A stretch of 64,000 nucleotides of DNA, from positions 1,922,001 through 1,986,000 of the forward strand of contig OY987247.1 of NCBI GenBank assembly GCA_963920765.1, read 5' to 3'. Shown piece by piece: positions 14,957 to 63,437 of this stretch. Under the pieces are notes generated by a model that ran no database searches, had not been told where the DNA came from, and worked only from the letters and a program-made list of their open reading frames with translations. The position numbers were made by a program, and so were the translations under genes. Numbering within the stretch: position 1 is the first letter of the stretch; each line of letters begins with the position of its first letter. The stretch is from Ulota crispa. Lineage: Eukaryota; Streptophyta; Bryopsida; Orthotrichales; Orthotrichaceae.

Positions 14957-15600
14957 TTAACCCCTAAATGCCCAAGGCCTTTCTGAACTACTTGGCATTT
15001 TCAAGAAAGTGAACAATCAACCAACCTTTTCATAAATCGTATCTTTAAAACTATAACCATACAAATTTAAACTTGACATGTTAGAGATTACATGGGAAAA
15101 GAAAACACAACACTACCACTTATAGTTTGAAAGATTATAACATTTGAACATGAGGGTGTTAAAATTGCAAAAGTGACTTGAAGTCTTCTAATCCTCATTT
15201 CACATGTCAAATCTAAAAATTTGGTCATTAAAAAAATATGAGGTTTAAGGTCATTACATGTTTAACCTCAACCAATTTACGGTTTTCAAAATCTACTCCT
15301 ATATTTTATTTAAATGGATTTCTAATGCGGATTTTTCTCCAAGCTCTAGTGTATTTGAGGCTCATTTTCAAGATCTAACACTAGAAATTTGAAGATTGCA
15401 GTGGACACCCTTGTACAAAATCTTGAATAAAAAAATCATGAACATTCATTTTCAAAATCAGATTTTTGATACTGAAAATAGGCTTCAAAACAAACTTGGG
15501 TTTAAAAGAAAATACCAAAAATAGTGATTTGATAAAATTTTATTCATCTTCAAAGTTTTGCAAACACCCAAATTGGGTGCCTTGGGCATTTAGGGGTTAA
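14957..15600. mobile_element. piggyBac-type MITE (element A), perfect 18-bp TIRs, TTAA ends
   Basis: Begins TTAA-CCCCTAAATGCCCAAGGC and ends with its exact reverse complement followed by TTAA; length 644 bp including both TTAA. The interior is AT-rich and noncoding and aligns along its whole length with the element at 18904-19548. TTAA duplication plus CCC-start termini is diagnostic of piggyBac-superfamily insertions. The perfect TIRs suggest it is one of the younger copies here. It sits between CGS1 and the AAMP-like pseudogene. Confidence 0.8.
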
Positions 15601-15699
15601 AACATATTCAAATTAAACCCTTTTCAATGAAATGCACAGTACATGGTGGATCTTTTTGCAAGAATTGCAGCAAATGAATTTTTTTTTAGTGTATACAAA

Positions 15700-16880
15700 C
15701 TACAGCTCAAAATTACGAGCACTATAATCATAGCTTTCTGAAAGAATAATGGCTCCATCGTTTGAAATAGCAAGGCTCTCAACCACATCTGTGGCCTTGG
15801 AAAACTCGTTCACACGCTCCGATTTGGTAATTCCACACACGCACCTTTCCGTCTGTGGATGATGAATAGATGAATTTAGTAGTAGAAGACCACTTGCATT
15901 GAATCACTGCCTCCTCATGTTGGCAAACATGACGGATTGACAAACTTTGCAGGTCCCAAATGATGAGTTTTCCGTCATTACCTCCGGTTGCAACAAAAGG
16001 TAGAGGAGACAAAAAACATCCACACCATATTCCGCCTGAGTGACCAATTAGGGATCCAATTATCCCTCCTGTATGGATGTTCACAATGCTTGCTTTGGCA
16101 TCCCTGGAGCCAACCATTACCACACTAAAATCATGGCTAAAACTCATACATGTCAAGATATCACTATGAAATTCGTGGCCTCGCACAACATGGATGATAT
16201 CCTTGAATATTGGATCCCAAACTCACAAGCTTCTATCCATTGATCCCGTGCATAGGTATCTTCCATCCGGGCTAAAACCACCACACGTGAGGCCTCCGTC
16301 GTGGCCCCCGTCCTCACCAGAAAATATTTGCATACATGCCCCCGTGTCTGCGTTCCAAAGCCACGCCGTACCATAATTTGATCTAGCAACTATTGAATGG
16401 CCATTTGGATGCCATTGCAAAAACTCAATAGATGCAGGTCCTTCAAGCTTGCGTAGTAGACTTCCTGAAGAACTATCCCAAATATTGACTATTCCATCAA
16501 AACCTCCCGACGCCAAGAAAAAACCATCTGGACTAAATTCCAAGCATGAAATTGACTCTAAATGTACTAGGAGATGTAGTTGAGAATCTCCAACGCCAAT
16601 TTGCCATAGATACACAAGCTCATCTATACCCTCCAGTTGCCACTAATTTTGAATCAAATGGATGAAAAGCCACACATCGGAGAGGAGCTTTGTGGCTCAG
16701 AAACGTGTGGATAGAGTGGTCAACTTCGTCTGCATTAAGCTCATCTGCATCTGGTAAATCTTCGTCGTCAAGCGTAAGCACACTAAGAATATCATCTTGA
16801 TCAACAAACACAGCTGGTTCTGGTTCTTTGGAATCATGGTCTGCAAGGTTGTTATTGGGTGAGCTAGGATTTGGAGCCAT
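15700..16880 (-). pseudogene. AAMP-like WD40 repeat protein, intronless disrupted copy
   Basis: Read on the minus strand from ATG at 16880, the translation follows the plant AAMP-type (angio-associated migratory cell protein) WD40 family end to end: an acidic N-terminus, then repeats such as CLEFSPDGFFLASGGFDG, CGGFSPDGRYLCTGSMD, FVATGGNDGKLIIWDLQ and STDGKVRVWNYQIGACERVF, ending near SYDYSARNFEL and TAG at 15700-15702. Total about 390 codons, the usual length. It is broken by a one-base shift near 16630, an in-frame TGA at 16223-16225 (probably CGA to TGA between RSL and VWDP) and another one-base shift near 15790. There are no introns, and a run of nine A lies just past the stop on the sense strand (about 15680-15688). 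Both features suggest a processed retrocopy. A live gene with sequencing errors is possible but less likely. Confidence 0.8.
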
Positions 16881-18769
16881 AGTGTAAAGACTATTTTAGA
16901 TGGACAAGTTGATAAATAGTTGACTAATATAGCAAATGCTGAACACAAATTATATAACAAATATTTTGGTTACACGTTTAAACTTATATATAGTGCTTTT
17001 GATTTTTTCTCTTTTCTCTTACTTTCTATTTTTGAAATCTAAATTTAATAGTAACACTAGTCTTTTAAGTCTTTTCTTACTTTTTATTTTTATGCTCACA
17101 CTCAAAATTAGTTTTAGACAACACTGGAATGCCTTTTGATGGAACAACATAGTTGATTTTCTAAATTTAAAGGTTACCTTGCATGGTGCTTTTAGATTTT
17201 AGTCATACAAATATTACAAGATTGCAATATTTGCTTTGATAAACAATTTTTGATATATTTATAAGTCAAAATTAAATGGAAAGTAAAAGCTTGAATCAAA
17301 AGGTGACTTTTACAAATGAGAAAGCAAACGCAATACCATTGCATTTTAAAATTTGAAGAAACTTATACTATAATCATTAAAAACTAAAAAATGACATACT
17401 AATTTTGGATGAAGACTTAGCAAATACAAGGTTTATTGTGAAAAAAAGGATGATAACAAAGTTTGGCAGCCTATAATTCTCATTCTTGTCAAAATATTAT
17501 GACAGTTTTTGAAATTTTCATGCTAATGAATCACGTCAAACATTGGAATATCTCTACATGTTTAGGAAAAACATCAAAATATATCCCACTACATAAACAA
17601 AATTATGGGGATTTCTTAATTTTCAAGTAAAACATTGAGAATTCTTCTTGTTTATTACATTTACTTCCAAAAAGCAAAGATCAAATTGTTATTTTGGGAC
17701 TTTGAAGTGTCCCAATTTAGTTGAATATGGGCATTTAAAAATCTTTTGGCCATTACTATATTTGTGTGGTGAATAAAATTTCAAGAACTTTGCCATTTAT
17801 TCTTGAGATCAAATTTTCCTACCACACCTTCACACCTTTTAGATACAACAGTTGTAGTGGGGATCACACTATCATAACAAAAGTATTGCTATTTTAGAAT
17901 AATATTCTTTTTTATTATACGGTGATCTCAAAAACTCACAAACAACTCTCTAAGCAACATCACAACAAGAATGCTAAACCCATAAAACAGTTTCTATTAT
18001 CATTTTGTTGATGCAAATCACTCATTGATTGAAAACATGCAACTAATACTAATTATGAAAAGGAACTTTACTCTTTATATAGTGCCAAAACAACAAACAT
18101 GTGAGATATGATGCAAATTTGAAATTACAAAGCAAGTTTGTTTTTGTCACAAACATATCATGAACCAATATTTTAAAAACAACCTCAATGATATTGTCAC
18201 TTCTTAACACAAATCTCACTTAGTCTTGAATATGCCATAATTATTGTTTTAGTGGGCAATACATGCAAAGGAATGATGAATTAACTAAATAACAAAAAAA
18301 AATTGCATGCTAACATACCAAATCTATTGTTACATGATAAATTTTGAATAGTATTGAACAAACATCACATTTATATATGGTATGTTTACAAGATGAACAT
18401 TAGGTTTTTTGATCAAAAATCTAGTGACCGTTAAAAATCACTCAATTCAAAACAAAAGTTGCCAAAGTTAAAGTTGCGGATACTACATACCAACCATAGT
18501 TGTCACATTGGATTGCTTGTTTGTCCGCTTGCCCATATGTTTAAAGTGCCCAATGGAGCTCATGGTCCATCCAATATAGTCAACTCATAATTGATTTCAA
18601 AAAATGATAAAAAATGATAAAAAAAACTTCATACATACTACAGTAGTAAGTAGTGACATTCACTATTGCCAACATGAAGTCAAAAAAAAGGATTTAAATT
18701 CATATCACATAGTAAAAATGAAAAATAGTAACTTGATTCTTCTAATTTAAAGTCAAAACCCTAATATTA
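16881..18769. other. AT-rich intergenic stretch, nothing recognised
   Basis: Strongly AT-rich, with only short open frames on either strand and no recognisable protein motif, long inverted repeat or TTAA-CCC terminus. Probably old, decayed repeat DNA. Confidence 0.5.
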
Positions 18770-18907
18770 CCTCCACTTGCATGAATCACTTGAGTACGTT
18801 GATAATTGTAGTTTATAGCAAGGACAAAAAATTAGATCCAATACTTCAAACAAGCATGTGCAATCATGTGAGGACCATTTTTGTCCTCTGGGGCACTTAG
18901 GGGTTAA
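18770..18907. mobile_element. Right end of a TTAA-type element abutting element B
   Basis: The stretch ends CTCTGGGGCACTTAGGGG-TTAA, the reverse complement of a TTAA-CCCCTAAGTGCCCC terminus, and matches 6770-6898 over about 130 bp. Its final TTAA (18904-18907) is also the first TTAA of the next element, so two insertions share one target tetranucleotide. The left end was not located. Confidence 0.55.
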
Positions 18908-19548
18908 CCCTTGACTGCCCACAGATGTTCTAGAGTATCTCAGAATTTGCTCTTGGATATACAAAATGGCAACATTTTGATAAGTTGCATCATTTAAAAA
19001 AATTTGTAATTGTACAAATTCAAACTAGACATGTTGGAGATCACATAGGAAAAAAATCACAACAATATCATTTATGCATTGAAAGATTATAATGTTTGAT
19101 CATGAGGGTGTTAAAATTGCGAAAGTGATTTGAAGTCTTTTAATCCTCTTTTTACATCTCAAACCTAAAATTGAGGGTACCAAAAAAATATGAGTATGTA
19201 AAGTATAACATGCGTAACCCCAATGAATTTACGATTTCTCAAAATCTATCATACAATTTTTTAAATTGAATTTTTAATGTGATTTTTTCTCCGAGTTCTG
19301 GTGTACTTGAGGCTCACTTCCAAGAGCCTTCAACACTAGATAGTGAAGATTTGCAATGGGCACCCTTACACACAATCTTGAATAGACAAATCATGTTAAT
19401 CATTTTCAAAATCAGACTCCTAATGCTGAAACTAGACTTCAATAAGAATTTTAATAAAATAATAACCACTATCTTGAGAAAATGTTGCGTATCTCTAAGT
19501 AAAATTCAGAGGGGCCCGGTTTGGGCCCCTTGGGCGGTGAGGGGTTAA
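18904..19548. mobile_element. piggyBac-type MITE (element B), 645 bp
   Basis: Starts TTAA-CCCTTGACTGCCCAC and ends ...GGGCGGTGAGGGG-TTAA. The interior is homologous to element A (14957-15600): shared blocks include 'gagggtgttaaaattgc', 'gaagtcttttaatcctc' and GAGGCTCACTTCCAAGA. The near-equal length (645 against 644 bp) shows they are full copies of one nonautonomous family. TIRs and interior are more diverged than in A. Confidence 0.75.
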
Positions 19549-23896: not shown

Positions 23897-24113
23897 TTAA
23901 CCCCTGAAGGGCCCTTGGGCTCTAGAGATATGGTACCAAATACGGCTGCAACCAATATTTAAGAGTTTGAATCAGCTAGAAATTAAGAGTTACAATCATA
24001 CATATTGAAGGGTTGTATGATGGTGGATACATTTTTTTTGGAAAGCCTTCAGAACAACTCAAATATGTCTATACATACAACCGCAAAGGGCTTTCGGGCC
24101 ATTCAGGGGTTAA
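23897..24113. mobile_element. piggyBac-type MITE, 217 bp
   Basis: Left end TTAA-CCCCTGAAGGGCCCTTGG; right end reverse complement TTAA-CCCCTGAATGGCCCG. The interior is noncoding. The left flank ...TAGGATCTC is the same word that ends every unit of the tandem array immediately to the right, which links this insertion to the origin of that array. Confidence 0.75.
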
Positions 24114-24325
24114 CCCTTGAATGACTGAGCAGCCCTCAGGATCTCTTTACCCTTGTACAACTGAGCAGCCCTTAGGATCTCTTAACCCTTGAACGACTAA
24201 GCAACCCTTAGGATCTCTTTACCCTTGAACAACCGAGCAGCCCTTAGGATCTCTTAACCCTTGAACGACTGAGCAGCCCTTAGGATCTCTTAACCCTTGA
24301 ACGATCAAGCAGCCCTTTGCGACTA
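24110..24325. repeat. 36-bp tandem array built on TTAA-CCCTTGAA termini
   Basis: Six units start exactly 36 bp apart at 24110, 24146, 24182, 24218, 24254 and 24290. Each reads T(T/T)(A/T)A-CCCTTG.AC.A, then a GAGCAGCCCT-type block, then AGGATCTC; four units begin TTAA and two begin TTTA. The first part equals the terminus of the neighbouring piggyBac-type elements and the last part equals the left flank of the 217-bp MITE. The array therefore multiplied an element end plus its flanking DNA. Confidence 0.85.
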
Positions 24326-24531
24326 GTACAATACAGAGTATTTTTCTTGAATTTGGAGTGCATGCACACCTTTATTACATTTGAGATCAACAAAGAGGTT
24401 AGAATATAGATCAATGTTGTTCTAGTGAGATAATCAAGATCCCAAATTAAAACTTTTTGTTGGTAGCAAATGCCAGTTATATAACAGCGTACACACTATG
24501 TATTATAATAGCTTGGTTGTTCAAGGGTTAA
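24290..24531. mobile_element. piggyBac-type MITE, 242 bp, related to the element at 34999
   Basis: Starts TTAA-CCCTTGAACGATCAAGC and ends with the reverse complement of TTAA-CCCTTGAACAACCAAGC, so the TIRs match at 15 of 17 positions. Read on the minus strand, its interior aligns with the right part of the 34999-35337 element ('ttgatctatattc', 'aatgtaataaagg.gtg'). Its first TTAA is the last unit of the 36-bp array. Confidence 0.8.
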
Positions 24532-34998: not shown

Positions 34999-35337
34999 TT
35001 AACCCCTAAGCGCCCAAGCGGACCGTTTTGGTCCGCAATCCTATCTTATTGGGTTAATGGGTTAAACGTCCATAGGGCATAGTAGATATGTTGCAATATA
35101 ATTGACATTTACCACTATCAAGATAGGACTGCATTGATCTATGTTCCAATTTAGGGATCTCAAATAGCACACTAGGGCTGCATTGATCTATATTCCAATT
35201 TCTTTATTCCAATTTCTTTGTCGAATATCCCAATTTCTTTGTCGATTTCCAATGTAATAAAGGGGTGAATCCATTCCAAATACAAGAAATACACCTTGTA
35301 CTGGTCACAGCGGTACGCTCAGATATTGAAGGGTTAA
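34999..35337. mobile_element. piggyBac-type element, 339 bp
   Basis: Left end TTAA-CCCCTAAGCGCCCAAGCG followed by a GGACCGTTTTGGTCC hairpin; right end ...TATTGAAGGG-TTAA. A second TTAA-CCC lies 6 bp outside the left end and further TTAA words lie inside (about 35054, 35062), suggesting nested or repeated insertions. The right part matches the 24290-24531 element in reverse orientation. The left TIR closely resembles the presumed right terminus of the transposase-bearing stretch at 43287. Confidence 0.7.
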
Positions 35338-35607: not shown

Positions 35608-36969
35608 TCACACAGCACCCAGCCGGTCACATGCATCAACAACCGTGTTTCTCGTGACTTCATTTGGCTGAACACCCTCTCTTTTCATTTGCGCGTATAA
35701 TTCCAGCGCCTCTTCAGGACGACCATTGTGCGCATAACCCGCAATAAGAGCAGTCCACGAAATCACATTCTTCTTGGGAAGGTTGTCAAACACCTTTCGT
35801 GCATCGACTACACTCCTGCATTTGCAATATGTGTTGATGAGAGCCGTGCCCACTCTCTCATCAGTGTCATACCCTGCAAGCTGAATCTGGCCGTGCAACA
35901 ATTTGCCCTGTTGTAAAAACGCAGGCTTGGTGCATCCCTTGAGCAAAGCCAAAAAGGTCATTTTATTAGGATGCATGCCGGCTTTCCGCATGGCATCCAA
36001 CCGTTCGAAAGCTTCGTCACAGTGACCTGCCTGAGCATATCCAGCAATCATAGTCGTCCATAGACCTACGTCTTTCCTAGGAAGCTTATCAAACACTCGA
36101 CGGGCATCCACCAGACTTCCACACTTGCTATACATTTGAACAATGGCGGTTTGAATACGAACGCTGAGTTCAAGACCCGAGTCAATAATCACCTTATGCA
36201 GACGTTGTCCCTCGTCCAAATGTGCTGGTTCATTACATGATTTCAGGATGCTCAGAAACGTAGCCATGTCTGGTTGGACTCCCTCAACTTTCATAACCCT
36301 AAATGTTTGTAAAGCTCGCTCGCGAAGACCGGCCTGACAGTAACCCTCGATCATGGCATTCCATACAATGATGTCCCGGTTCGGAATTCCAGTAAACACA
36401 CGATGCGCATCTCGTGGACTGCCACATTTGAAATACATGCAAATGAGAGAGGTCCCGACACGGATGTCCGATTCCAAACGTCGTTTGAAAATGATGTCGT
36501 GCAGACGCTTCCCTCCTTCAAGGTCATTAGGGTTAGTAAACGCTTTCAACAGGCTCAAGAATGTCACCCGGTTCGGCCGCAGGTGCTCATCCTGCATCCG
36601 GAAAAAAAGCGCAAAAGCATCCCTCGGGCGCCCTTGTTGCGCTAACCTTGAAATTGCGGCATTGCACGAAATCAAGTTCCACGTACTACTTCGGAATCCC
36701 CCTTCTTCCTCACGAACCGCGTTCGTCGTACTGCTGCAATACCTGAAACTACGCAACCTGCTATCGATTTCGCCCGAAGCAGCGATTCCCGTGACATGTC
36801 TGACACAGAGCATCCTCCCAGTCCAGTCGTCTCCATTCCGAAGAAGCGTGTTTAACCAACCCCCGGTCTGATGAGTGGCTGCAAGATTCCACGGAAAACG
36901 GTTCTCTGAATGTGCCCAGGCACTTCCAAAGCGCCCCAGAAGCAATCGCAACTTGCGCATTGCGCACAA
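35608..36969 (-). CDS. P-L-S class pentatricopeptide repeat protein, single exon
   Basis: PPR proteins bind organellar RNA in sequence-specific fashion and act in editing, splicing or stability. This 453-residue frame has an Arg/Leu-rich N-terminus fitting an organelle transit peptide, then from residue 98 three P-L-S triplets and one more P motif. S motifs read for example VRIQTAIVQMYSKCGSLVDA; L motifs contain FLSLLKAF, FLSILKSC and FLALLKGC. The reading stops 18 residues into the next L motif (EVTRNTVVDACDRLGAV), so there is no E, E+ or DYW domain. Either the protein is naturally short or it is truncated at 35608. Motif wording resembles moss and lycophyte PPRs. No introns and no disruptions. 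An alternative start is Met4. The RNA target was not predicted. Confidence 0.88.
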   Translation of the reverse strand: MCAMRKLRLLLGRFGSAWAHSENRFPWNLAATHQTGGWLNTLLRNGDDWTGRMLCVRHVTGIAASGEIDSRLRSFRYCSSTTNAVREEEGGFRSSTWNLISCNAAISRLAQQGRPRDAFALFFRMQDEHLRPNRVTFLSLLKAFTNPNDLEGGKRLHDIIFKRRLESDIRVGTSLICMYFKCGSPRDAHRVFTGIPNRDIIVWNAMIEGYCQAGLRERALQTFRVMKVEGVQPDMATFLSILKSCNEPAHLDEGQRLHKVIIDSGLELSVRIQTAIVQMYSKCGSLVDARRVFDKLPRKDVGLWTTMIAGYAQAGHCDEAFERLDAMRKAGMHPNKMTFLALLKGCTKPAFLQQGKLLHGQIQLAGYDTDERVGTALINTYCKCRSVVDARKVFDNLPKKNVISWTALIAGYAHNGRPEEALELYAQMKREGVQPNEVTRNTVVDACDRLGAV

Positions 36970-38524
36970 CGCTCCGCGATACCGCCACGACCACAGTCAT
37001 GAGCAAAATTAGAAACAACGAAGGCGAGCTTGTCGTAAGCAATGACACATTTGAAGCCGAAATCCGAAACCCTAATTCAGATTGACATCGTGGAAGATAT
37101 CAAATGCGACCCCGAAAGTATCCGTGATGGTCAATCAATCTTTGACAGTTCCGTAATTAAGGACAACAATTTCATAACTGAATTATGGGGTGATCAAATT
37201 ATGGAGTTAAGCCTTGAGCGCCCCACAGGCGATAAATGGGGCGCTCAAGGTTGAATATTTGCCCATGGGGTGGATCCGGGTGGTACTTTTTGGGAAAATG
37301 AACCAGGGGTTTAGGGTAGGGGTAGTGATGTTGGGAAGTGGTTTAGAGGGGGTCCCTGCTGTACAAGTGCTGTGGGACCAGTTCTTAGCAGTGAAATTCC
37401 ATGTTTGAGAGAATTTGTGAGCGGAGGGAGGACCGGGGGCACCGGGAGCGGCCGGTGGCAACCGTCATTGCCATTTCCTGCGTTCTTGAGAGGGACTTCT
37501 CGGGCGCGCAAGGGTATTCCCGTATTCTACACATTGCTTGGAATGATTCTCAAAGTTTCTGCCATGAGTGCAATTTGTTAGTTTTGTGCTTGCAATTCCT
37601 TGAAGGATACTACGGTGTCATGGAGGAGGGAGTGGAGGCGGCTGATGGAGGGGCAAGCGTGTGAGGGCGTTGCAAAGAATTTTGGAGCCGCCATTGCAAG
37701 GGAGGGAGCGAATGAGGTTGCAAGGGCTCAATTGTACCACGGCGTCCACCTCCGCGGCGACTTGCGATTTGCGTGTGCCTACTGTGCCAGCCACCAAACG
37801 ATGGTCGCTGCACCTGCGCTTCATCAGCCGAGCACACCTGCAGAGTTTGTGGAACGTCGATCGGGTTGTACTCTACGCGACTTGGCGGTGGTGGAGGCCG
37901 CATTGGCGGGCTGGGCAATCCAGCGCCACAACGCAACGCCAGAGCAGGTTGCAAGGGTAGTGTCATGCCTACAAGAAGATTTTCTCCTCTCCCTTGCAGA
38001 GCCACGAACTCGGCATTCTTGGCCGCAAAATCCAGAGGCAAACTCCTGGAGGTATCTTTTCCGCAAGCAATGCTTCTGATGCCTCAATGACTGCGAGCAG
38101 ATTCTAGAGGGGCACCTTGAGGGGCTTCCGGACGTTGTGAATGATTTTATAAGAATGACGTGGTGGCTGAATTGGGCGGAAGTGGTGGTAGACGGGTTTG
38201 CTATAGCATCTGGACGTAGACGTGACAAGGGACAAAGATTGGCTGAGCGCCCTCGAGAACGTGGTCGGCAGATTTGCGTCGCTCCCCCCTACAAAGCGCG
38301 AAGGAGAAGGCAATTGCAGGGGATTTGGGAGGCTAGGTGCACTGGTGGGAGCCCTCCCACAGGGGTCGGAGGGGGCCCAATTTTCTTGTAACGCTAACGG
38401 TATGCAAGAGCCCTCCAGAGGCCGTGGTCGCGGTGCAGTACAAGGCGGCTTCGGCCGAGGTGCGACTTGAGGAGGGCGTGGAAGGGGCCGGATTCATGAG
38501 ACTGGGTACAATGAAAATGGAAAT

Positions 38525-40583: not shown

Positions 40584-42374
40584 GTGCAGCGTCACGGCAT
40601 GGTTGATTTGAACGAGGCATCTCTTGAGGCAAGTGAAGTGGAATCTTCTGTGAATACCTCGGATTCAGAGTGGAGGGCTAACTGGAGGGACTTTGCAAGG
40701 AATGCTTTGTCTTTGGAGGTGTTAGGGTCAGACACGTCCTCAAGGCACAAGAGCATTGATATGCAGCACAAGCTTGGACATTATGAGGACAACACTAATT
40801 TGGATGACTTAGACTTTAGAGCTTGCTACCATGAGCACTTTTGGCAGAGCTTTGAGTCTACGCTCCTTGAAGATCGTGCCATGTTCAGAGGATGAGATCC
40901 GAACCTGGTTGCCCCAGTGACCCGCTTTCGGCATCCTACAATTCATTACTTTGACTTATTCTTTGACAACAGGGTGTTGATGAAGATGATTGACCATAGC
41001 AACCTCTACGCATCCCAGTAGGACACATGGCGATCTCATGGTACCAACAAAGGGCCACATTGAGTTCCGACTTGTGCCTTGGAGATGAGGGCATTCATTG
41101 GGGTAGTCATATTGATGGGGATCAAGGTCCTTCCTACTATCCACGACTACTGGAAGTGCAAGGAGATCTTGCGTTGCTCACTGATCCCGCGAGTCTTCAC
41201 TTACAATTGATTTGAGTCATTGCTACGCTGTGTGTATTTTGTGGACAACAGAGCAATAGAGCGCAACCAAGACTCTCCAGATTTCAATAAACTGGCAAAA
41301 GTGAGGTGGCTCATTAAAGATTTCATCACACGTAGTCGCGCCTTGTACAACCCGAAGAAGTTTGCGACATGCGATGAGATAATGGTGGCCTACCAAGGCT
41401 ACTATTTAGATTTTCGGCCGTACATGCCGGCAAAATCGACAAAGTATAGGTCCAAGTACTTCGCAGCTGTCTGCAATCCATTGAGGTACATCTATAACCT
41501 CATCCCTTACGTCGGAGCAACAAATACTCTAGAGGTCCGGCAAGGGGAACAAATCGTGAGAGAACTCACAATGGGATTGGATGATGTCGGCCATACTATT
41601 GTTTGCGACAACTTTTTTAGTTGTCCCCAGCTCTTTGAGGACATGTACCGGCGTGGGATATGGGCAACCGGCATTATACGGGAGAATCGTTTTGGACTAC
41701 CGCCGTCACTGTTAGGACAACGAGGGGGTAACCAACCCCGTGGGACTTTGCTCTAGAAGATGCACGCCCAACGGCGGATGGTGATCACCTACTAGTACAA
41801 CTTGAAGCCGGTTTATATCCTCTCTATTTCTGCAAACCCGGTAGCAGAGGGAGTCGTGACGATGAGGTGGTTGCACGGTACTCGCGTTCCAGTTCTGTCA
41901 ACGCCTCAGCAGATCAAATACCAAATTAACATGAGGGGGGTGGACATTTTGGATCAGATCAGGACAGATTATAGTATTCAGTTTCACTCACATAAGTGGT
42001 GGCACAAACACTTGTTTTTCATGGTTGATAGTTGGCTCAACAACTCTTGGATATTGCTAGCGCATGACAAGCTTACGTAGAACAAGCCAATTTATTGAAA
42101 GTGACTAACTTTTTACATGGAGATAGTGGAGAGCTTAATTGCTCCATGGTTGGATCAACCTTGCTTAGAGAAAGTGGAGTGCCTTTGCCACCCCGGTGCC
42201 ATCCACTATAGCAGCAAAAGACCTAGTCTTTGGCGAGTTTGTATTGTGTGCAAGCACAAGACTCATTTTCATTGTCTAGCGTGCGTAGGAGCTCATATGT
42301 GTGTGGGTACTTGCTTTTTCAAGGTCCATACTAAGTCTAAGTGGGCACTAAGAGATACTCGGCATGCACTCTAG
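40584..42374 (+). pseudogene. piggyBac transposase (DDE_Tnp_1_7 type), one frame, many stops
   Basis: All recognisable pieces lie in one reading frame: an acidic N-terminus with RACYHEHFW; FRHPTIHYFDLFFDN; FIGVVILMGIKVLPTIHDYW; FNKLAKVRWLI; CDEIMVAYQGYYLDFRPYMP (first catalytic Asp, codon near 41373); HTIVCDNFFSCPQLFEDMY (second Asp near 41607); MRGVDILDQIRTDYSIQF (third Asp region near 41943); and a Cys/His-rich tail RVCIVCKHKTHFHCLACVG (about 42235-42330), the typical C-terminal zinc finger. All three acidic sites are present. The frame is cut by about nine in-frame TAG/TGA codons, with no TAA and no shift. Several fall where the family has Trp or Arg, as expected if TGG or CGA changed by C:G to T:A transitions. 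It is inactive as it stands. Confidence 0.88.
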
Positions 42375-43663
42375 GATGGAGCTTAGCAGTCTTCTGTTAG
42401 AATGATCAGCACTTGCAGGTTGTATTTCTTTCTTACGGTATTGGTAGAGAAGCAACATTGGTTATGCTATTTTTTGGACACTTTTATCTACCTTGTATGA
42501 CCTCAGAGACCTTTCAAGAAATGTCCAACGTTGTGTTTGACAATGAAACCGGATTTCCATTCTTGTGTGCATTTCTATTTTAAATGTAAATTTCAAAACC
42601 AAGACTTTAGTGAATGCCCACACTCAGTACCGCCTGCAAGCCCATATATGCCGGTCTCAAGTGAAGCCACTAAAACAGCATGCAACAGACGTCTTGGTAT
42701 GTGCCTTGGCTACAACCTGGACCCCTAACCCTAAAACTGTTGTGTTCAATTGATTCAAACCGTTGAAGAATTGGCGCAAGGAACCTGACATGTCAGGCTC
42801 AGCCACGGGAATACGGGTGGGCCTCAAGGGGAGGGGAAGGACGCGTCAAGTTGCTTTGGCGGGCCTTCTGGTCTCTTCTTCATTTTCCGCGGTGACAGCC
42901 TTGAGGAAAATGCCTACAGAATTCCGCTACCACATTGCCAAGCCCTGCAAATTGGCAGAGGCATGAGAACTTCAAGACCCCACGCCCTTCCAAAATCCCA
43001 GCTCTAGCCCTTGTCTTCACTACTCGTAGCCCCTTTTCAAAATGCAACCCCTCTCCCAAAACACGCTAAATCAATCCAATCAATAAGCCGTTGACCATTA
43101 GAATCTTTCTAATCGTACGGTTGGTTATTCTCAAAGCTGTTCCATTCCCTACAGACTAAACCCTTATCCACTTCTTAGCGGTGAAAATGCCCAATTCTTG
43201 ATTCTCAACAAACGACGCCACTTGATTTAGACAGACCCTAAGGAAGGCTGAAAAACCAAAGAAAAACTTTGGGTGCTTAGGCATTAACCCTTAAACGTCC
43301 CGAATGCCCTCTGGAGCCATATGTCCACCTTATACAGATCAGGTGAAACGCGTTGTTCAGCAGTTCAATTGCGAGGGTATTTTCAAAAGGGTTTATCTTG
43401 TAGCTCAGCCCCCATCACTATGGAGAATCGAGTCTCCTCTAACCTAGCTCCGGGCAGGGGAGAGCTCAACCATCCAATCACAAAACCAAACAGCAGCCGT
43501 GGATTACCATTGGGAGCTTCAGAAGGGAACTCAAGCTTACATCCAAGCCCAAGCACGGAAACACCTCCCTGTCAGGCCAGGTCAGAGGCCAAGTCAAGTC
43601 AGAGGCCAGGTAGGGTCAAAGGCCAGGCTCGGTCCAGGGTCTCGCTCCAACCCAGTTTAGGCC

Positions 43664-43993
43664 AAATGTTTTGGATGAAGTGGCCTTAGCTTTTTTTCTA
43701 ACCAACAAATGGTTGAGTAGCAAGGATGGCTACATTTTTTTTTACCAATGTAAAGTCGGATGCTTTCAACCTTCCATCAAAGCTAAATCTCATGATGGGT
43801 TTGTGAGAAATTAGAATATTGCTCTAGTAGAATGAGGTGACATCAAGTGGAACCTTGAAATCCGGGCTCCTACTCCCAAACTTGTGTATAAAAGTTGGCT
43901 AAATATTTTACATTTTTTCAAAAAATACTATAGAACAATTAGCCACACCAATTTTGGTGTAGCAGAAAAGCAATAACTAGCACAAAACATTTT
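43664..43993. mobile_element. Nested MITE (AAATGTTTTG ends), left arm copy
   Basis: Ten-base inverted ends AAATGTTTTG ... CAAAACATTT bound a 330-bp noncoding block. The same block appears alone, diverged, at 48928-49257, which shows it is an independent element later included in the palindrome arm. Confidence 0.6.
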
Positions 43994-45509
43994 CCCTTTC
44001 ACTCCAAGGTCCCAGCTCTAGCTCGGGTTCTAGTAGGGTAAGGTAGTCTGCTCTTGAATGGACCATCTAAGCAAAAGTGTGTTTTTGTGGAAAAATCAGG
44101 GCAACTTGGTAAAATGGAAATATTTTTGGTAGAAAGTCAAAGAAGAGACAATTGTGTGGCCATTTATTTTGAAATTTTTTGAGTTTGTATGAATTAACTA
44201 CAATTTATCAAAGCAAAAGTGCATAGGGTAGCTATTCTTGATCATAGGTGGTAGCATTCATGAAGCAAAGGCGGCTTGTAAATGGAGCACATGAGTCCTA
44301 AAAACAACCACTGTAAAGCCAAGAATGCTCTAATAAGGCTCTTAAAGCGTGCAAGCACCCATTCCATATTCTAATACTCAAATCATGATTGAGAACAAGT
44401 TTTCATTTATTTTAGTATGACATATATCTATATTTTATTGAAAGACAAATCTGAACACAATTATGACCAATAAAGCACACACAACAATGGCTCATGTCAC
44501 TCTCTTAATTTTCTAAAATGGTCAATGCGCAAGTACAATTCTAAACTTAAAAAATGTGATCCATTTAAGAACATTTGTGCACTGTTTTTGTGACCCCTAC
44601 ATGGTCCGTTCCAAATGGATGGACCAAATTTGAGCAAAATACCTTAGCTCAAGGGCCCTAATTGGGAGGTTTAAAGTTGTGTCTAAGGGTTTAGAAACAT
44701 CAATACACAATTGTTTAATGATTTGAGTTACCCCAAGGTCTAGGAGAATTAATGATTTTCTTAAATTTAGTGTTAGTCTTTCAACAAGCTATTATGGAAC
44801 GTGATTTATGTGGAAAAAAATATTGTAGTTTACTTTATATGAAAGGGCAAAGTTACAGTTTATAGGGTCTCTAAACTAACCTTGAAAATGCTTGGATGTG
44901 TTCCTATAATGGCACTTGACGATTCCAATCCCAACCCTCCCAAAGCAACTTAGCAACTAATATGTGGCAAAATTTGCTTGTGCAAGTAACGTTCACTTGC
45001 TCCATTTTAGATTCATTAGTGTGTTGTGAAACCCCCAAATCTAGGGTGCAGAATTGAGTGACACTTGGGAGTGGGCATGTTCACCTTACCGTATGTTTAG
45101 AATGCGTTCAAAATGGAGAATGCTAAATATTGAGCGGGGATCCCTGAGCCATGACTCATGAGCCAAGAAATTTTGTCAAAATATTAAATTTCACCTACAA
45201 ATGTGTACATAGGGCCTTGTAATTGTGCATTAAAAATATTCACCTCTTGAAAAGCTTGATGTTTTTAAGTTTTTTCATTGATTTTGAGCTCAAAATTGGT
45301 TCTTAAGCAAAAACCTTTGCTTACCTCTGATAGGCTCACCATTTTACTATCACAAAATAATGTTGCCCTATTTAAAATGAATTTTTTTGTGTTGCCCTTT
45401 CCTTTTGTATGGGTATCAAAATTATAGTTACTTAGATAAATTTGTTTGGATATATAATGAAATCAACAAGTTGTAAAGTATAAAAATGATGAAACAAAAA
45501 CTTTGTTGA

Positions 45510-45709
45510 NNNNNNNNNNNNNNNNNNNNNNNNNNNNNNNNNNNNNNNNNNNNNNNNNNNNNNNNNNNNNNNNNNNNNNNNNNNNNNNNNNNNNNNNNNN
45601 NNNNNNNNNNNNNNNNNNNNNNNNNNNNNNNNNNNNNNNNNNNNNNNNNNNNNNNNNNNNNNNNNNNNNNNNNNNNNNNNNNNNNNNNNNNNNNNNNNNN
45701 NNNNNNNNN
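45510..45709. other. Assembly gap of 200 Ns inside the palindrome
   Basis: Exactly 200 unknown bases. Open frames reported through it are artefacts. By symmetry the partner of 45083-45509, about 427 bp in a complete palindrome, would fall in the gap, so the real gap may be longer than 200 bp. Confidence 0.95.
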
Positions 45710-46798
45710 GAACATGCCCACTCCCAAGTGTCACTCAATTCTGCACCCTAGATTTGGGGGTTTCACAACACACTAATGAATCTAAAATGGAGCAAGTGAA
45801 CGTTACTTGCACAAGCAAATTTTGCCACATATTAGTTGCTAAGTTGCTTTGGGAGGGTTGGGATTGGAATCGTCAAGTGCCATTATAGGAACACATCCAA
45901 GCATTTTCAAGGTTAGTTTAGAGACCCTATAAACTGTAACTTTGCCCTTTCATATAAAGTAAACTACAATATTTTTTTCCACATAAATCACGTTCCATAA
46001 TAGCTTGTTGAAAGACTAACACTAAATTTAAGAAAATCATTAATTCTCCTAGACCTTGGGGTAACTCAAATCATTAAACAATTGTGTATTGATGTTTCTA
46101 AACCCTTAGACACAACTTTAAACCTCCCAATTAGGGCCCTTGAGCTAAGGTATTTTGCTCAAATTTGGTCCATCCATTTGGAACGGACCATGTAGGGGTC
46201 ACAAAAACAGTGCACAAATGTTCTTAAATGGATCACATTTTTTAAGTTTAGAATTGTACTTGCGCATTGACCATTTTAGAAAATTAAGAGAGTGACATGA
46301 GCCATTGTTGTGTGTGCTTTATTGGTCATAATTGTGTTCAGATTTGTCTTTCAATAAAATATAGATATATGTCATACTAAAATAAATGAAAACTTGTTCT
46401 CAATCATGATTTGAGTATTAGAATATGGAATGGGTGCTTGCACGCTTTAAGAGCCTTATTAGAGCATTCTTGGCTTTACAGTGGTTGTTTTTAGGACTCA
46501 TGTGCTCCATTTACAAGCCGCCTTTGCTTCATGAATGCTACCACCTATGATCAAGAATAGCTACCCTATGCACTTTTGCTTTGATAAATTGTAGTTAATT
46601 CATACAAACTCAAAAAATTTCAAAATAAATGGCCACACAATTGTCTCTTCTTTGACTTTCTACCAAAAATATTTCCATTTTACCAAGTTGCCCTGATTTT
46701 TCCACAAAAACACACTTTTGCTTAGATGGTCCATTCAAGAGCAGACTACCTTACCCTACTAGAACCCGAGCTAGAGCTGGGACCTTGGAGTGAAAGGG

Positions 46799-47128
46799 AA
46801 AATGTTTTGTGCTAGTTATTGCTTTTCTGCTACACCAAAATTGGTGTGGCTAATTGTTCTATAGTATTTTTTGAAAAAATGTAAAATATTTAGCCAACTT
46901 TTATACACAAGTTTGGGAGTAGGAGCCCGGATTTCAAGGTTCCACTTGATGTCACCTCATTCTACTAGAGCAATATTCTAATTTCTCACAAACCCATCAT
47001 GAGATTTAGCTTTGATGGAAGGTTGAAAGCATCCGACTTTACATTGGTAAAAAAAAATGTAGCCATCCTTGCTACTCAACCATTTGTTGGTTAGAAAAAA
47101 AGCTAAGGCCACTTCATCCAAAACATTT
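46799..47128. mobile_element. Nested MITE (AAATGTTTTG ends), right arm copy
   Basis: Mirror image of 43664-43993 within the right arm; identical in the stretches compared. Confidence 0.6.
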
Positions 47129-48000
47129 GGCCTAAACTGGGTTGGAGCGAGACCCTGGACCGAGCCTGGCCTTTGACCCTACCTGGCCTCTGACTTGACT
47201 TGGCCTCTGACCTGGCCTGACAGGGAGGTGTTTCCGTGCTTGGGCTTGGATGTAAGCTTGAGTTCCCTTCTGAAGCTCCCAATGGTAATCCACGGCTGCT
47301 GTTTGGTTTTGTGATTGGATGGTTGAGCTCTCCCCTGCCCGGAGCTAGGTTAGAGGAGACTCGATTCTCCATAGTGATGGGGATAGCTCAGCTCCAGAGG
47401 GCCATTTAGAGGTTAAGAGGGTATGGGTTTTGTAACCAAATTATGGAAATGGGGCATTGGAAAGGGGTCACAAGGATAGGGAACATGGGATGTGAAAAGT
47501 TGCTCAAATTATAAAAATGTTATTCGAATTGTAAGAAGTTGTTAGAATTTTTCAAATTTGATATTTTAAAGTATTTTGAATGTGATGTTTTTTATACCAG
47601 TGGTTGTCTTTATGTTTCTCAAATTTTGAAATTCAACAACAAGGGAGGGAGAGGAAAAGATAGGGAATGAAGGACGTTTTGTGTGGAGATCCATTTTTTA
47701 AACTCATGCATTGCCATGTCAATACGATGAGTATAAATGACTTGTAGTCTATATTTAGATTGATTTTTGATCAATTTTTACCCAATTATTTTTAATTGTG
47801 AGTATGATCATCAATTCTAAAGAAATCTTGGCATTTTCAACTTTAGGATGAAAATTTGCATGTACTATGTGTGGACTTTGGTTGAGCAACAAGCATGTAG
47901 GCAAGGAAAAATTGGATAGAATCATCCATGTGTGCATGCTTGTCTATAAAATTAGTTAATCTTAGTAGCTTTCATCCAAAGTTTGGTGTACTAGCTACAT

Positions 48001-57600: not shown

Positions 57601-59353
57601 ATTGCTTTTTTAACAGTTCGAATTTGTGTGAACAGGGTGTAATCAAGGAAGTGGCTAAGGAAGGGAAAAAATTCATGTCTCCCAGGCTTGCTTGCCAGGT
57701 GGCAAGAAATGTAGCATGTGGTTTAGGAATGCTGCACTCCAAAGGCATTCTTCATAGGGACATTAAGAGTAGCAACGTGCTGGTTGATATGGACTCTCAA
57801 CAAGGTCCTGATGGAGGACCCATTGTGAAATTATGCGATTTTGATAGTGCTGTCCCGATGAGCTCATCAGCTGCTCATACATGCTATTTGGCTCATCGTG
57901 GCGTTCCACCTGTTGACGTCTGTGTTGGAACACCTCGTTGGATTGCTCCCGAAGTTCTGCAAGCTATGTATGGGAAACATACTTATGGATTGGTACGTAA
58001 ATCCTTCCTACAATGAAGTATTTTATGAGCATTGTACTCTAGGCCTTTTGTCCTCGCACGTAATGCTTAAGTTGGTTCTGTTTGTCTTTCTGGAGGACTT
58101 CATATTTGACGGTAGGCTAATGTGGTCATTTTTTGGGAGTTGATCACCATTACTGCTTTTGGATGTTCCTGTTGCATTTGGAATGAGTTGTAACTCATTC
58201 AGAAAATTCTTATATTCCTATTATCTTTTTGCCCTGTTGTACGTTTCAGGAGATTGCTACTAACAATCCAATTGTTCATTGCGGATCACTGATGGCTTCA
58301 TTTGTTGCAGGAAGCGGATGTGTGGTCTTTTGGCTGCCTGTTAGCTGAATTACTCACTCTTGGAGTTCCATATTCAGGGCTCAATGAGTCGGAGGTCCAC
58401 TCTTGTATTCAGGTAAAACGTTGGATCTGAGTCTCGGTAACTTGCCTGCAACTTGGTTTGTATTAAGAGTAGGTCGTTTTTGTCACGACTGCTCATAGTT
58501 TAGACGTTTTGCTACAGCATACAGAAAGTACAGCTGAACCGATATAGGGTGTTGTTTAAGGCCCAATTTTTTACTTCGTGGCATTTTCGGCTATTGCTAG
58601 TAAAACCTATGTTTTTTTTTAGCAGGTTTGATTTGGCATGAAAACCTTCTAAAATTCTTGTTCACTAATAGAACTCTTGTGTTCAAGAACTACCATGCAT
58701 TAGAGGTTGTCACTTTTTCTCTTACTTTTGTCACGCAGAGATTCTCAATTCAAATCCAAGTCTATAGAACACACATAACGTATTCTACTTTAGGTTCATC
58801 CTACCTCCCATTTGGAGCCAAAGTGATAAATCGAACAATGATTCTTCTAGTTTTCTCTTGATTGCCAGTCATGTGTATTTGACCTAATTTCATCTTGTGT
58901 GGAGGAATGGATAGTATGATCTAACATGTTTGGATTGGACGTTTGTGGATTCAGATGGGCCAACGTCCTCATTTATCAGCAGAGCTGGAGAATCTGGTGG
59001 CGCAACCCTTTCCAAAGAAGAAGCCTGCAACTGATGATATCGAGGTCCTTAGAGTGTTGGTGAAACTGTTCCATTCCTGCACAAAGGCAAATCCTTCGCA
59101 ACGTCCCACTGTTAAGGAGATCTTTACCACGCTTTCCGAGATTTCTAGGCCTGCCTTAATCAGTGTGGATCCACCGTTTCAAGAGGAGGCTGCTGCTGAT
59201 GAACCCTCGAACGTCCAGGGGACTGGTCCAAACATTCTAAAGCCCCTCGTGGAGGGACCTGTGATAAACGAGGCAGGGTTGCCCTGCAGTTGTGGAGGAA
59301 AGAAGTGCACAAATTGTGAATCAAAAAGCGTCCCAGAAGCCAAGGCTGCTTGA
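51684..59353 (+). CDS. LRR / EDR1-like / Raf-like protein kinase, 12 exons
   Basis: Resembles the plant LRR kinase represented by Arabidopsis At1g04210. Exons: 51684-52324, 52705-52969, 53689-53866, 54058-54275, 54380-55071, 55543-55993, 56296-56477, 56782-56947, 57240-57440, 57636-57992, 58311-58412, 58955-59353; about 1283 residues. Order: an acidic N-terminus; intracellular-type LRRs (residues about 110-310, e.g. LEELDLSFNKLRALPKEISG); a basic KARQDRLNNSRK stretch; an EDR1-like block with CRHRAILLK (about 807-815) and VRILVDGCRPLDIR; then the kinase: GQGASGASVRR loop, Lys931, HRDIKSSNVLV (Asp1040), DFD (Asp1066) and GTPRWIAPE (1098-1104). DFD instead of DFG is, as I recall, shared by this family. 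A Cys-rich tail CSCGGKKCTNC follows. No signal peptide or membrane segment, so cytosolic. The join 53866/54058 needs a GC donor (AAAG|GCGGGT) and is the weakest. Start ATG chosen as the first in the open frame. Confidence 0.88.
53291..53366 (+). mobile_element. Internal fragment of element A in kinase intron 2
   Basis: 76 bp nearly identical to 15303-15379 in element A ('aaatggatttctaat.tgg', CTCCAAGCTCTAGTGTATTT, GAGGCTCATTTTCAAGATCT). No TTAA termini surround it, so it is a fragment, not an insertion of a whole element. Just before it a 23-bp word (CCTAAAACCTTTTG.CGAATT) is tandemly repeated at 53238 and 53261. Confidence 0.7.
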
Positions 59354-60756
59354 TTTTTTATCAAAAATAGCAATTATGAATTGTGGGAATTTGATGAGGA
59401 GTGATTCAGAATCCTCTCGTGATAGCCAGATTTTTTCACTAAGTGAAACAGGATGGAGTTAACGCTGTTGCAGAAACGCCAAGACTTGGTGTTTGTAGTT
59501 CCTGATCGTTCCAGGAGCGTCTCTCAGGGCAGCAGGGATCCAGTGATAACATGTTGCCGGTATTCAATTCTTAGCCCTTGCACTACTGTACAATATTTTC
59601 CTTTGAGAAAGCAATTTGCCTGTTGGACTTATGCATGAATTCTAAGTTTCCACTGCAACTCTTTGGACAGTCCTGGTTGAGGTACACGTATGTGAAGAGA
59701 TGCAAGCAGATCTTTCTTGGACTTCGCAAGCAAGAATTTGTGTTTGGGGTGCTTGTTAAGTTGGTATTTTCATCTCTGGGTTAACGTACCATGAAAGGTG
59801 GGGTACTATCTAGAAGCGGTAATTGATCTCAGTTGAATAGGCAGTAATCTCCAAAGTCTTATCAAAGAGAACACCAGGAAAGCCCATACGAATTGGAGGT
59901 CGATTTTGAAACAATGTGGACCTTCATACTCATGAAAGCCAATCTTATTTCAATGTTGATTTCATATCAATGCAAATAAAATGTTGAATCAAACATTGAA
60001 ATTGGCCTTGCAACCATGTTTGAAAAAGCATCGGTGCATTGTTATTTTATAGATGATGTGATTGAATGTTCACTTCAAGTGAATCTCAAACACGAAAGTT
60101 AGTATAGAAACAATATTAGAGTAGATATAACGTTATGGATTTTCTATGGGGTTTTCTCATACCGAAGTGTGGACAATGGAGTTGATTCACTGAATGTTTT
60201 TTCAGGCATATGTGATTTTATGTGCAGGTTTTTATGAAGGCGTAAAATTGGTCCAAAATCAGAACTTGTGTATGGACTTTTGGAGGCCATAAGATTGGCC
60301 TTTTGACTGGTGGAGAGAAGGGCGAACAAGGTGGTGTAGTTATCATTAGATTAGTAGAAGACATGTCAACTAATAGTGTGTGTATACCAAATACTGTAAA
60401 GGATAGTTTGTAACATTTTTGAACTTTCTTTTATGGTTATTACAAAAGTTTTCTAGGTAGTGTTACCTATGTATAACGAGGTCAAGATGAACCATTCAGT
60501 TGAAGTTCCTTTACCTTCTTTCCACGCTATTTAAGCTTGCATTTTGAAATAGAAAAATGGAAATGACATGATGGAATTAAGAATTCTACTATGAATTTGT
60601 AGGGTACTTAAAAGAGGATTTTAAACCATTGAGAATGATGGATGTGAACTTCTTTGGACAATATTTGAGGACAACCTATAAGTCAAGTCAAAAGACATGG
60701 CGATTTCGAACCACCATCACAAACACCAAGAATTTTATAAAATGGTTTGAATATGA

Positions 60757-61615
60757 GAATTGATATGTGCACACCTGGGGTTTGGTATAAGGTATATACA
60801 CCTTTCTTCGACCAGTCTCCAAAGCCAACCCCTGGGGTTTGAGCTATGTTTGAGGTGTTCACCACTCATTGTGAACCCAAAATGGAGTTGGAAATGTCAC
60901 TTGCACAAGCAAATCTTACCACATGTTAATTTAGGAGCTAGTTTGGGGGGTTAGGATTGGGACTGTCAAGTACATGTATAGGAGCATATTCAAGCAATTT
61001 CAAGGTTAGTTTACAATTGCTTTTAGGGTCTTATGTGCTGCAACTTTGCCCTTTAATATAAAATATTCTACAATTTTTTTATCCACAAAATTGACGTTCC
61101 ATAATAGCTTGTTGAAAGGGCTAATCCTACAAAAAAGAATCCTGAACTTTCTGAGACCATGCGGTACCCCCAAACCTTTAAATGGTTGATTATGGGTATA
61201 CATATCTTATGCACACTTAGGGTTTGATATATACACATTAGGGGTGGGATAAATTTTAGATATTTACTGTCAACAAGTTGAATTTGAAAAATTTGAATTT
61301 GAATTTGAATTTGGATTTAGAGGTCTTGATACAGGCTATGACTACATAGAAGGTTACTATTAAAAAGTGCCTAATAGAAAAGCTTAGATAGGGAGCAAAT
61401 CATTACTTTTATCCTTGTTTATATAAAAACTAAGCTTTTCCCCTGACATATACTTAATTGTAACCTCCTATATAATTTTAGACTAAAGAAAAGTCTCTTA
61501 ATCCAAATCTGAATTCAAATTTTCAAGTTCAACTTATTGATGATAGTTATCTAAAATTTACCTCAGCCCCCGGTGTGCATATATCAAACCCAGGGTTGCA
61601 CGTATCAATTCCCTT
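60757..61615. mobile_element. Inverted-repeat element of about 860 bp with a palindrome-arm relative inside
   Basis: Left GAATTGATATGTGCACACCT and right (reverse complement GGAATTGATACGTGCAACCC) form TIRs of about 33 bp continuing 'ggggtttggtata' / 'gggtttgatata'. A second inverted pair (61195-61300 and 61500-61615) gives an inner hairpin of about 110-bp arms. Between them, 60850-61130 is a diverged relative of the right palindrome arm (45780-46010): 'cacttgcacaagcaaat', 'caaggttagttta', TTCCATAATAGCTTGTTGAA. Confidence 0.5.
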
Positions 61616-61643
61616 TTAATATGAGGCTGTGGTTTTGTTCCAT

Positions 61644-62177
61644 TTTATGAACTAACTATTCTTGAGATATTTTCAAAATGATCAACAAACCAAACTTGCT
61701 TACAAAAAGTGCTTCTATATAGATGTCATATGTCATTTCTACATAGGTGTTTGTGTCGTTTTTTCTTTAGTTGCTAAAAATATTCTCCCATGACGTATTA
61801 TTTCCTATAATTAAAAGTATCTCTCTTTTCTTTGAATATGTATAAAGATCCATTAGAAAATGTACTATGGAATAATGCTGTGCCGTAGATGTGTGAATAA
61901 GAGGTGTAGATTTTGATGTTTAAAATGTATCTATACCATTGCATTTACCACTACAATCACTAATACATTAACATAAATTCGAAACTCAAGTTGTAAATTT
62001 ATTTCTAAATTTGATTAGAAACAAATCATTGATTATTCGGTAGTGGAATTTATGAAAATGAATGTGGACTTGGACCCAAACTCATTGTATTAATAATGTA
62101 GATTTTTAATAAATTTTAACAATAAAACACTTGAAATATCATGAAGTTATTTAAATTAATATCATAAAAATATCAAT
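61644..62177. other. AT-rich DNA, nothing recognised
   Basis: No open frame of note and no clear repeat termini. Confidence 0.4.
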
Positions 62178-62710
62178 TTAACCCCTAAAGTCCCAAGCTG
62201 CGCTATTATTTTCATTTTTTTGTTCTTAGCTTTACATTCCAAAGACGTGGATTGTAAGTTGGATTTTTTGCAACTTACCTAGAATTTAGTAGTAGGCAAG
62301 TTGCGATACTTTCTTTTTTAGTTTAGAATTTTGTTTACAAGTTTTTTCTTGCCTAAGAACTTTTAGATATATGCATGGCAGCTTATTAGGTTATAAATGG
62401 CAACTTTTAAATTTAGTTCATATATTCTTCAATTATGTGAAATGGTGATGTCTAACATCAATCTTTCATAGTTGTTTTAGGGTTTAGGGATAATGCTAAA
62501 CTTGGACATTTGCAAAGTGTACACTAACAATTTTATTAAGAAGCCATTGAAAAACTATTTAGTACATTTGTACAAGTGCCAAACCCTGCCATGACACAAT
62601 AACTACAAGTAGTTGTTTGAGGGAGGGCAAGTGAGTAAAAAGCACATTTACACTTTGCATTATAGCTAGGTGGGGGGAATCAAATATGATTGATGGCTAC
62701 TCAAGATATT
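62178..62710. mobile_element. TTAA-type left terminus without a visible partner
   Basis: TTAA-CCCCTAAAGTCCCAAGCTG at 62178 has the family's left-end sequence, but no inverted end appears before the next element starts at 62711. It may be a solo end or an element whose right end lies beyond the window with the 62711 element nested in it. Confidence 0.45.
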
Positions 62711-63437
62711 TTAACCCCTAAAGGCCCAAGGGCCCTTTTTGGGGACAAATGGAATTTTGGGCATGTACCTATGGCTAAATTACTTTGTGTGATTTTCTAA
62801 AACTTTTATAGAAGGTGAGGAATTCAAAGATCTACATGGAAATATAAAAAAATCTTCATTCCAACATTTATTGAAGAAGTTGAAAATGAATAACTGAAAA
62901 ATAGGGGACTCCGGGCAGCCCAAAAACTTCTGTAAAAATTGCGTTTTTTTCAAATAAAAATCTGAAATAGATTCTTTAGACTTATATAGACGTGGGGAGC
63001 TTTGAATCATTCAATTCTAATAGATGAGAGGAAAGTTATGAGAAGTTTTAGTTTGCGGGTAGGTGTGATTTTGAGAGAAATCACACCTACCCGCAAACTA
63101 AAACTTCTCATAACTTTCATCTCATCTATTAGAATTGAATGATTCAAAGCTCCCCACGTCTATATAAGTCTAAAGAATCTATTTCAGATTTTTATTTGAA
63201 AAAATGCAATTTCTACAAAAGTTTTTGGGCTGCCTGGAGTCCCTTGTTTTTCAGTTATTCATTTTCAACTTCTTCAATAAATGTTGGAATGAAGATTTTT
63301 TTTATATTTCCACATAGATCTTTGAATTCCTCACCTTCAATAAAAGTTTCAAAAAATCACACAAAGTAGTTTAGCCATAGGTACATGCCTAAAATTCCAT
63401 TTGTCCCCTAAAGGGACAATGGGCCTTTAGGGGTTAA
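62711..63437. mobile_element. piggyBac-type palindrome (fold-back MITE), 727 bp
   Basis: TTAA-CCCCTAAAGGCCCA at both ends in inverted orientation; the two halves (62711-63071 and 63077-63437) are almost complete reverse complements, about 95% alike, meeting at a spacer of a few bases (near 63074). The mirrored 76-codon frames on opposite strands are consequences of the palindrome. The structure is like 43284-47416 on a smaller scale. Confidence 0.85.

Follow-up and report, generated by a model that had tools for sequence, protein, structure and literature searches.

Non-autonomous, TTAA-bounded elements of probable piggyBac origin, many with a palindrome at base pair 25 of one end, in the genome of Ulota crispa

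The stretch of DNA analysed here (the window) spans 64 kb, C6:1922001-1986000, of a genome of 274,817,297 bases (~275 Mb) in 157 contigs. We find that it very probably (at roughly 0.83) contains non-autonomous piggyBac elements that share their tips, belong to a superfamily that has greatly expanded in this genome, and owe their movement to transposases acting in trans, each family having its own; in many of the families one end, typically not both, has a palindrome with its dyad at bp 25. The sequence-only reading of the window had proposed nonautonomous TTAA elements, and paired TTAAs, tips and 4-bp empty sites in paralogues identify these as MITEs of the piggyBac kind. They have the marks of MITEs, being short, uniform, high in copy number and without a transposase gene (not every copy was screened for a transposase-like frame). 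Marks of the piggyBac superfamily are the 4-bp TTAA target duplication, inverted tips beginning CCC, alike at 15 of 17 positions between the two ends in each of three transposase elements, a DDE_Tnp_1_7 transposase inside elements with TTAA-CCC ends, and the palindrome at bp 25 of one end, which is found in many families, not all. Below, C-numbers are contigs of this genome and L-numbers are loci sampled from it. Since the genome similarity searches scored only the best candidates, the copy numbers they give are minimum values or first-look counts.

The consensus TTAACCCCTAAATGCCCAAG, with up to three mismatches allowed, has 9 matches in the window against 0.00 expected. Seven TTAA-bounded stretches had been listed; five hold and are TTAA-bounded MITEs of the piggyBac superfamily, the one at 23897 being the least tested, and the remaining two, 34999-35337 and 43284-47416, fail as single elements (Table 1). 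Genome matches to the first MITE cover its full length (1-644) in 35 of the 40 scored, its own copy counted, and 32 of 40 scored matches to the 18904 element cover 1-645 completely. The 62711 family is full-length within 3 bases in 80 of 86 match rows (both orientations, about 40 places). For the 217-bp element at 23897, homology with its relative in L065 begins exactly at its first base.

Table 1. Features in the window and full-length transposase elements elsewhere in the genome
Feature	Position	Strand	Remarks
MITE family 1, 644 bp	14957..15600	.	TTAA both ends; palindrome CACCCA-N3-TGGGTG beside right tip
End of another family, facing left	18767..18907	-	shares TTAA 18904-18907; palindrome GAGGAC-N7-GTCCTC
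MITE, 645 bp	18904..19548	.	palindrome AGGGGCCC-N5-GGGCCCCT beside right tip
TTAA-bounded 217-bp element, probably MITE	23897..24113	.	TTAA both ends; relative in L065
Tandem array, 36-bp unit	24110..24317	+	tip plus 8 bases AGGATCTC
MITE, ~240-bp family	24290..24531	.	family members at C1:258618-258857 and elsewhere
Solo palindrome-type end	34999..35040	+	GCGGACC-N5-GGTCCGC
Relative of the 24290 family	35062..35337	.	right end clear; left end judged by eye
Decayed piggyBac transposase	40944..42050	+	DDE_Tnp_1_7 domain; 2 TGA and 3 TAG inside
Cysteine-rich tail	42240..42350	+	same frame as 40944..42050 transposase
Split 150-bp-type MITE, left part	43284..43398	+	same MITE type as right part
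Split 150-bp-type MITE, right part	47385..47416	+	partner of 43284..43398
MITE, 727 bp, long inverted repeats	62711..63437	.	palindrome TTGTCCC-N5-GGGACAA beside right tip
Full-length transposase element, ~5.03 kb	C3:13130262		TTAA both ends
Full-length transposase element, 5102 bp	C2:15046195-15051296		TTAA both ends
Full-length transposase element, 5360 bp	C2:16967265-16972624		TTAA both ends

The stretch 34999-35337 was rejected as one element, since its two ends are unrelated, palindrome-type at 34999 and of the 24290 family at 35337. Rejected too was 43284-47416 as a transposase-bearing element: it consists of MITE ends around ~4 kb of other DNA. Both ends come from one 150-bp MITE type that is present uninterrupted in L042, and the right end, which had been given as the inverse of CCC(C/T)T, reads TTAACCTCT instead. 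The interior (43399-47396) contains inverted arms of 1673 nt at 100% identity with an assembly gap of 200 N (45510-45709) beside them. Its ends read CCCCATCACTATGG, and the 9-base repeat TAGCTCAGC stands on both sides of it, a duplication of the kind left by Mutator-like elements. Four other genome copies (L005-L008) have one arm of this palindrome and lack the second, so that the 1673-nt palindrome may be an artefact of assembly; the interior as a whole may be either a real foldback element or such an artefact. Another inverted repeat lies at 3148-4297 of the window; its arms measure 422 nt and are 95% alike, and 21-base tandem repeats lie close to the loop.

Among the ends that had been listed as solo, the one at 18907 does face outward, but it shares one TTAA with the end at 18904. 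Its far end was not found, the family query returning mainly a neighbouring ~270 bp repeat, and the segment 6758-6898 is 75% like it. The ends at 6898, 50171 and 62178 are tip-like; partners for them were looked for and not found. One TTAA common to two outward-facing ends was seen at five sites (window 18904-18907 and 24110-24113; L042 1501, L053 2151 and L056 2150). Such shared TTAAs involve 10 of 149 ends, and we claim no enrichment because the rate used for comparison, 140 of 2832, includes these very ends as read on the opposite strand. The array at 24110-24317 is made of six tandem units, each with TTAA, 24 bases of MITE tip and the 8 bases AGGATCTC. Those 8 bases recur on the left side of 23897, which looks like multiplication of a host-element junction. 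Since the 36-bp unit contains an end, the TTAACCC occurrences at 24110, 24182, 24254 and 24290 are not independent insertions. Between the solo piggyBac-type end and the decayed transposase sits a 453-aa open frame for a PPR protein (35608-36996, minus strand; PPR_2 E 2.6e-62). Mosses have about a dozen DYW proteins and seed plants many more; the DYW deaminase domain has 14 matches in this genome, a number that points to a moss.

The ends are abundant throughout the genome. There are 1545 exact copies (781 and 764) of the 22-mer TTAACCCCTAAATGCCCAAGGC, and 0 of its reversed control; stripped of its TTAA, the same sequence is an 18-mer found 1832 times, and 1545 of these have the TTAA. First-look searches, most of whose candidates were unscored, gave 4884 genome candidates for 14957-15600, 4471 for 18904-19548 and 7287 for 62711-63437. 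The strict end pattern TTAACCCTTNANNNNCC occurs 9526 times, or 2.2 per 64 kb, against 3 in the window, so the density that had been called striking is the ordinary level of this genome.

The target site can be read directly from the flanks. TTAA stands on both sides in 27 of the 30 sampled copies of family 1, the window copy included. The exceptions are L065, with CTAG on both sides, and L050 and L062, altered at one end. These copies are the nearest relatives of the one in the window (their pairwise identity averages 0.934 and their identity to the majority 0.963), and older copies are therefore under-represented. The CTAG-flanked copy (L065 1501-2148) suggests insertion at a tetramer other than TTAA. 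MITEs of the PIF/Harbinger or Tc1/mariner type were considered and rejected; the target duplication of those superfamilies, as given in the available text of PMC10004981, is TTA/TAA or TA, and the target here is the 4-bp TTAA (CTAG in one copy).

Two insertions, L043 and L045, lie in older repeats, and their unoccupied paralogues were compared. When the flanks of L043 are joined over one TTAA, they run continuously through L057 (81%) and L054 (76%). Those of L045 are continuous in L052, L022 and L012 (71-73%) and match the window near 61 kb less cleanly. In L006 and L007 the alignments stop at the junction and give no continuity across the site. There are no extra bases at the unoccupied sites of L057, L054, L052, L022 and L012. 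The expected empty sites with a single target were thus found as one 4-bp target in the paralogues of two insertions, but where the occupied site has TTAA they have TTAG or TTGG, and the window has CTGA; TTAA itself was found in none of the unoccupied paralogues that were aligned.

A piggyBac transposase had been reported from the same window and is indeed present, although decayed (40944-42050). Its longest open piece matches DDE_Tnp_1_7 at E 8.3e-27 and T. ni piggyBac at E 1.1e-12. Of the catalytic Asp, the first two are aligned and the third is seen in frame as GVDILDQ. None of the seven listed end pairs encloses this gene. Across the genome there are at least 120 matches to PF13843 (DDE_Tnp_1_7), with 116 of 528 candidates scored, and 0 in 14 control genomes. 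Ten of the 120 rows (about 8 places) are free of internal stops and 110 have stops. Among 30 transposase loci, 11 pairs align over at least 1 kb at 64-70% nucleotide identity and one pair at 90%. Three full-length transposase families, of ~5.03, 5.10 and 5.36 kb, could be delimited with TTAA at both ends; the C3 element has a 90% copy in C10, with homology lost at the same ends, and relatives matching both of its ends in C8 and, more distantly, in C11.

After the catalytic domain, 15 of the 30 loci and the window gene have a cysteine-rich tail in the order C-x2-C, C-x2-C, C, C, H, found in 0 of 30 on the reverse strand. No stop interrupts the tail in the window gene or in 11 of the 30 loci. 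Seven Cys/His are invariant in a 12-row tail alignment, partly fixed by the pattern that chose the rows. No family was found for the tail in Pfam. A fold search with a model of the window tail (mean pLDDT 69.8) returned 77 matches at E up to 10 and none at or below 0.001; the PiggyMac cysteine-rich domain stood at rank 14 (E 4.5, not significant). Among solved structures, piggyBat is the closest in sequence to the L030 fragment (E 2.1e-7); the tail contributes no more than a second match that is insignificant, and the spacing of the tail cysteines looks closer to piggyBat than to T. ni piggyBac.

In many families the palindrome has a fixed place in the DNA. We scored dyads with arms of at least 5 bases, centred at position 29 counting the TTAA, which is bp 25 of the element. 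The first set covered 321 kb and held 148 ends in 56 clusters; 12 of these clusters have the dyad at bp 25, against a mean over centres of 0.51 and next highest values of 4 clusters at centre 14 and 3 at centre 30; five of the 12 had prompted the palindrome idea, and the independent figure is 7 of 51. A fresh set, the first 60 places of the genome-wide pattern taken without selection, comprises 60 ends in 30 clusters. The dyad lies at bp 25 in 4 of these clusters, or 9 of the ends (Poisson 1.7e-5), and other centres average 0.145 and never exceed 1. Pooling the sets (208 ends) gives 12 of 71 clusters at bp 25, with a mean of 0.50 at other centres and a maximum of 4 at the neighbouring centre 30; 2000 shuffles of the pooled set gave a mean of 0.25 and a maximum of 3. 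A perfect dyad is absent from 59 of the 71 clusters, as expected if the dyad is one-ended and decays, but its absence from both ends of 7 of 16 two-ended elements counts against the preferred reading.

That the palindrome is one-ended is seen in 16 two-ended elements, where it is on exactly one end in 9, on both in 0 and on neither in 7; these elements are partly dependent, five being in the 240-bp family and three in one palindromic subfamily, and their pairing was judged from distance and orientation, with the inverted duplicate C1:915464-917247 excluded. Seven of the nine one-ended cases are exactly at bp 25 and two are one base nearer the tip. The palindrome of 62711-63437 is one base off, at bp 24. 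In the transposase elements L069/L009 and L030 the palindrome is at the 5' end of the gene, with 6 of 7 pairs in each left end, and it is absent from the left end of L014 (1 of 7). The C10 copy of the L069/L009 family shows it weakly (4 of 7), and right ends of transposase-bearing elements have 2 to 4 of 7 pairs. A 36-bp module of tip and palindrome at C1:14302947 is 94% common with the 5-kb family, the DNA that follows is not shared, and no other end was found within 2.4 kb. The end at L083 (C1:465353-465462) carries the strong palindrome GGGAGAT-N5-ATCTCCC, whose centre lies about 12 bp deeper in the element than is usual.

The arms differ between families and do so in step. Sixteen palindromic families have 11 different half-sites; the pair formed by columns 25 and 33 is C-G in 16 of 16, and the other arm pairs vary in matched fashion. 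Perfect pairing in this list is there by construction, because the families were selected for arms of at least 5, and the list is informative only in how its pair types vary and in its unchanging C-G column. One subfamily keeps a similar A+T core, which is flanked by the arms CCGAACC/GGTTCGG, GCGACC/GGTCGC and CGACC/GGTCG.

These ends can be set beside those of two known systems. In the parts of PMC7351741 available, the T. ni complex has a dimer of the C-terminal cysteine-rich domain on palindromic bp 17-33, at one end only, in the minor groove centred near bp 25. The elements described here resemble T. ni piggyBac in the TTAA target, the CCC tip, the DDE_Tnp_1_7 domain and a palindrome near bp 25, which in T. 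ni is on the left end. They differ in that the palindrome sequence is unrelated, and in that T. ni piggyBac has the palindromic repeat in both ends, whereas 0 of our 16 two-ended elements have it at that place in both. For piggyBat of Myotis lucifugus, the available text of PMC11707139 and PMC13405395 confines the palindromes to the left end, places the first of them at bp 19-30, and describes a left end that bends around bp 25 and a C-terminal domain that differs from that of T. ni in fold and palindrome. A one-ended palindrome centred around bp 25 is thus common to piggyBat and to our elements, but the piggyBat palindrome occurs three times on its left end and our pooled profile has no second such peak.

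Might these palindromes instead be hairpins or cruciforms left over from the origin of the MITEs, and not binding sites? Some MITEs, such as 62711-63437, do have long inner inverted repeats, as this explanation would have it, but unrelated families, and two of the three transposase elements, have the palindrome centred at the same bp 25 and on one end only, and bp 25 is also the position given for the zinc-finger dimer in the accessible text of PMC7351741, PMC11707139 and PMC13405395. We regard a hairpin origin as unlikely. A little less likely still is that one transposase lineage moved all the elements and that the differences among their ends are decay. The TTAA and the CCC(C/T)-type tip are common to all, and mobilisation by one transposase had been proposed. 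Matched changes on both arms, however, are not what decay is expected to produce, the transposase copies are very divergent, and a well-delimited transposase family has at least 5 left-end and at least 4 right-end matches against thousands of first-look MITE candidates. The proposal is not supported: there are many end families, the half-sites differ among the palindromic families, and 11 transposase pairs are only 64-70% identical, a diversity of ends and transposases that makes a single source transposase unlikely.

That the repeated ends belong to one long satellite deserves almost no weight. It fits one local array, that at 24110-24317, where it is true; the three families searched contradict it, since their copies are uniform in length, scattered over all major contigs and set in different flanking DNA, and 27 of the 30 family-1 copies have a TTAA on each side.

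We thus favour piggyBac families moved in trans. At both ends the transposase core would read the tip that they share; at one end the palindrome would, by analogy with T. ni piggyBac and piggyBat, be gripped and bent by two C-terminal cysteine-rich domains acting as a dimer. Tip recognition together with the one-ended grip would give an asymmetrical complex, with excision and insertion at TTAA, and the palindrome arms may help to distinguish families. MITEs would have kept tip and palindrome, lost the gene, and been moved in trans by the transposases of their own family. Contacts with the protein and a family-specific code are likewise suggested by analogy. With many families, one fixed dyad 25 bp from one tip and half-sites that change in step, we lean slightly towards a recognition code in which each family's own palindrome is read by a matching zinc-finger dimer, the one-ended grip being a general rule of the superfamily.

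Elements like piggyBac occur in plants (PMC8086355 and PMC10813416, as far as their available text goes). The accessible portions of PMC10004981, PMC6890710, PMC10794571, PMC8086355 and PMC10813416 give the superfamily name or, for C-Fern, a count of 1230; they have a plant host and the piggyBac label in common with the present case, and ends, palindromes and transposases are not described in those portions. Among the top-ranked papers of our literature searches none described piggyBac in a moss, although the survey by Bouallegue et al. (cited in PMC8086355, itself available in part) might contain one; the available text of the moss genome paper PMC10619864 has the word "piggybacking" alone. 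If the preferred reading is right, piggyBac would be a major force in a land-plant genome. Sequence alone would then suffice, through the fixed position of the matched-arm palindromes, to recognise the left end of a piggyBac element and to guess at the binding site of its transposase, and the many natural end families would provide test cases for the one-ended, asymmetrical model of synapsis.
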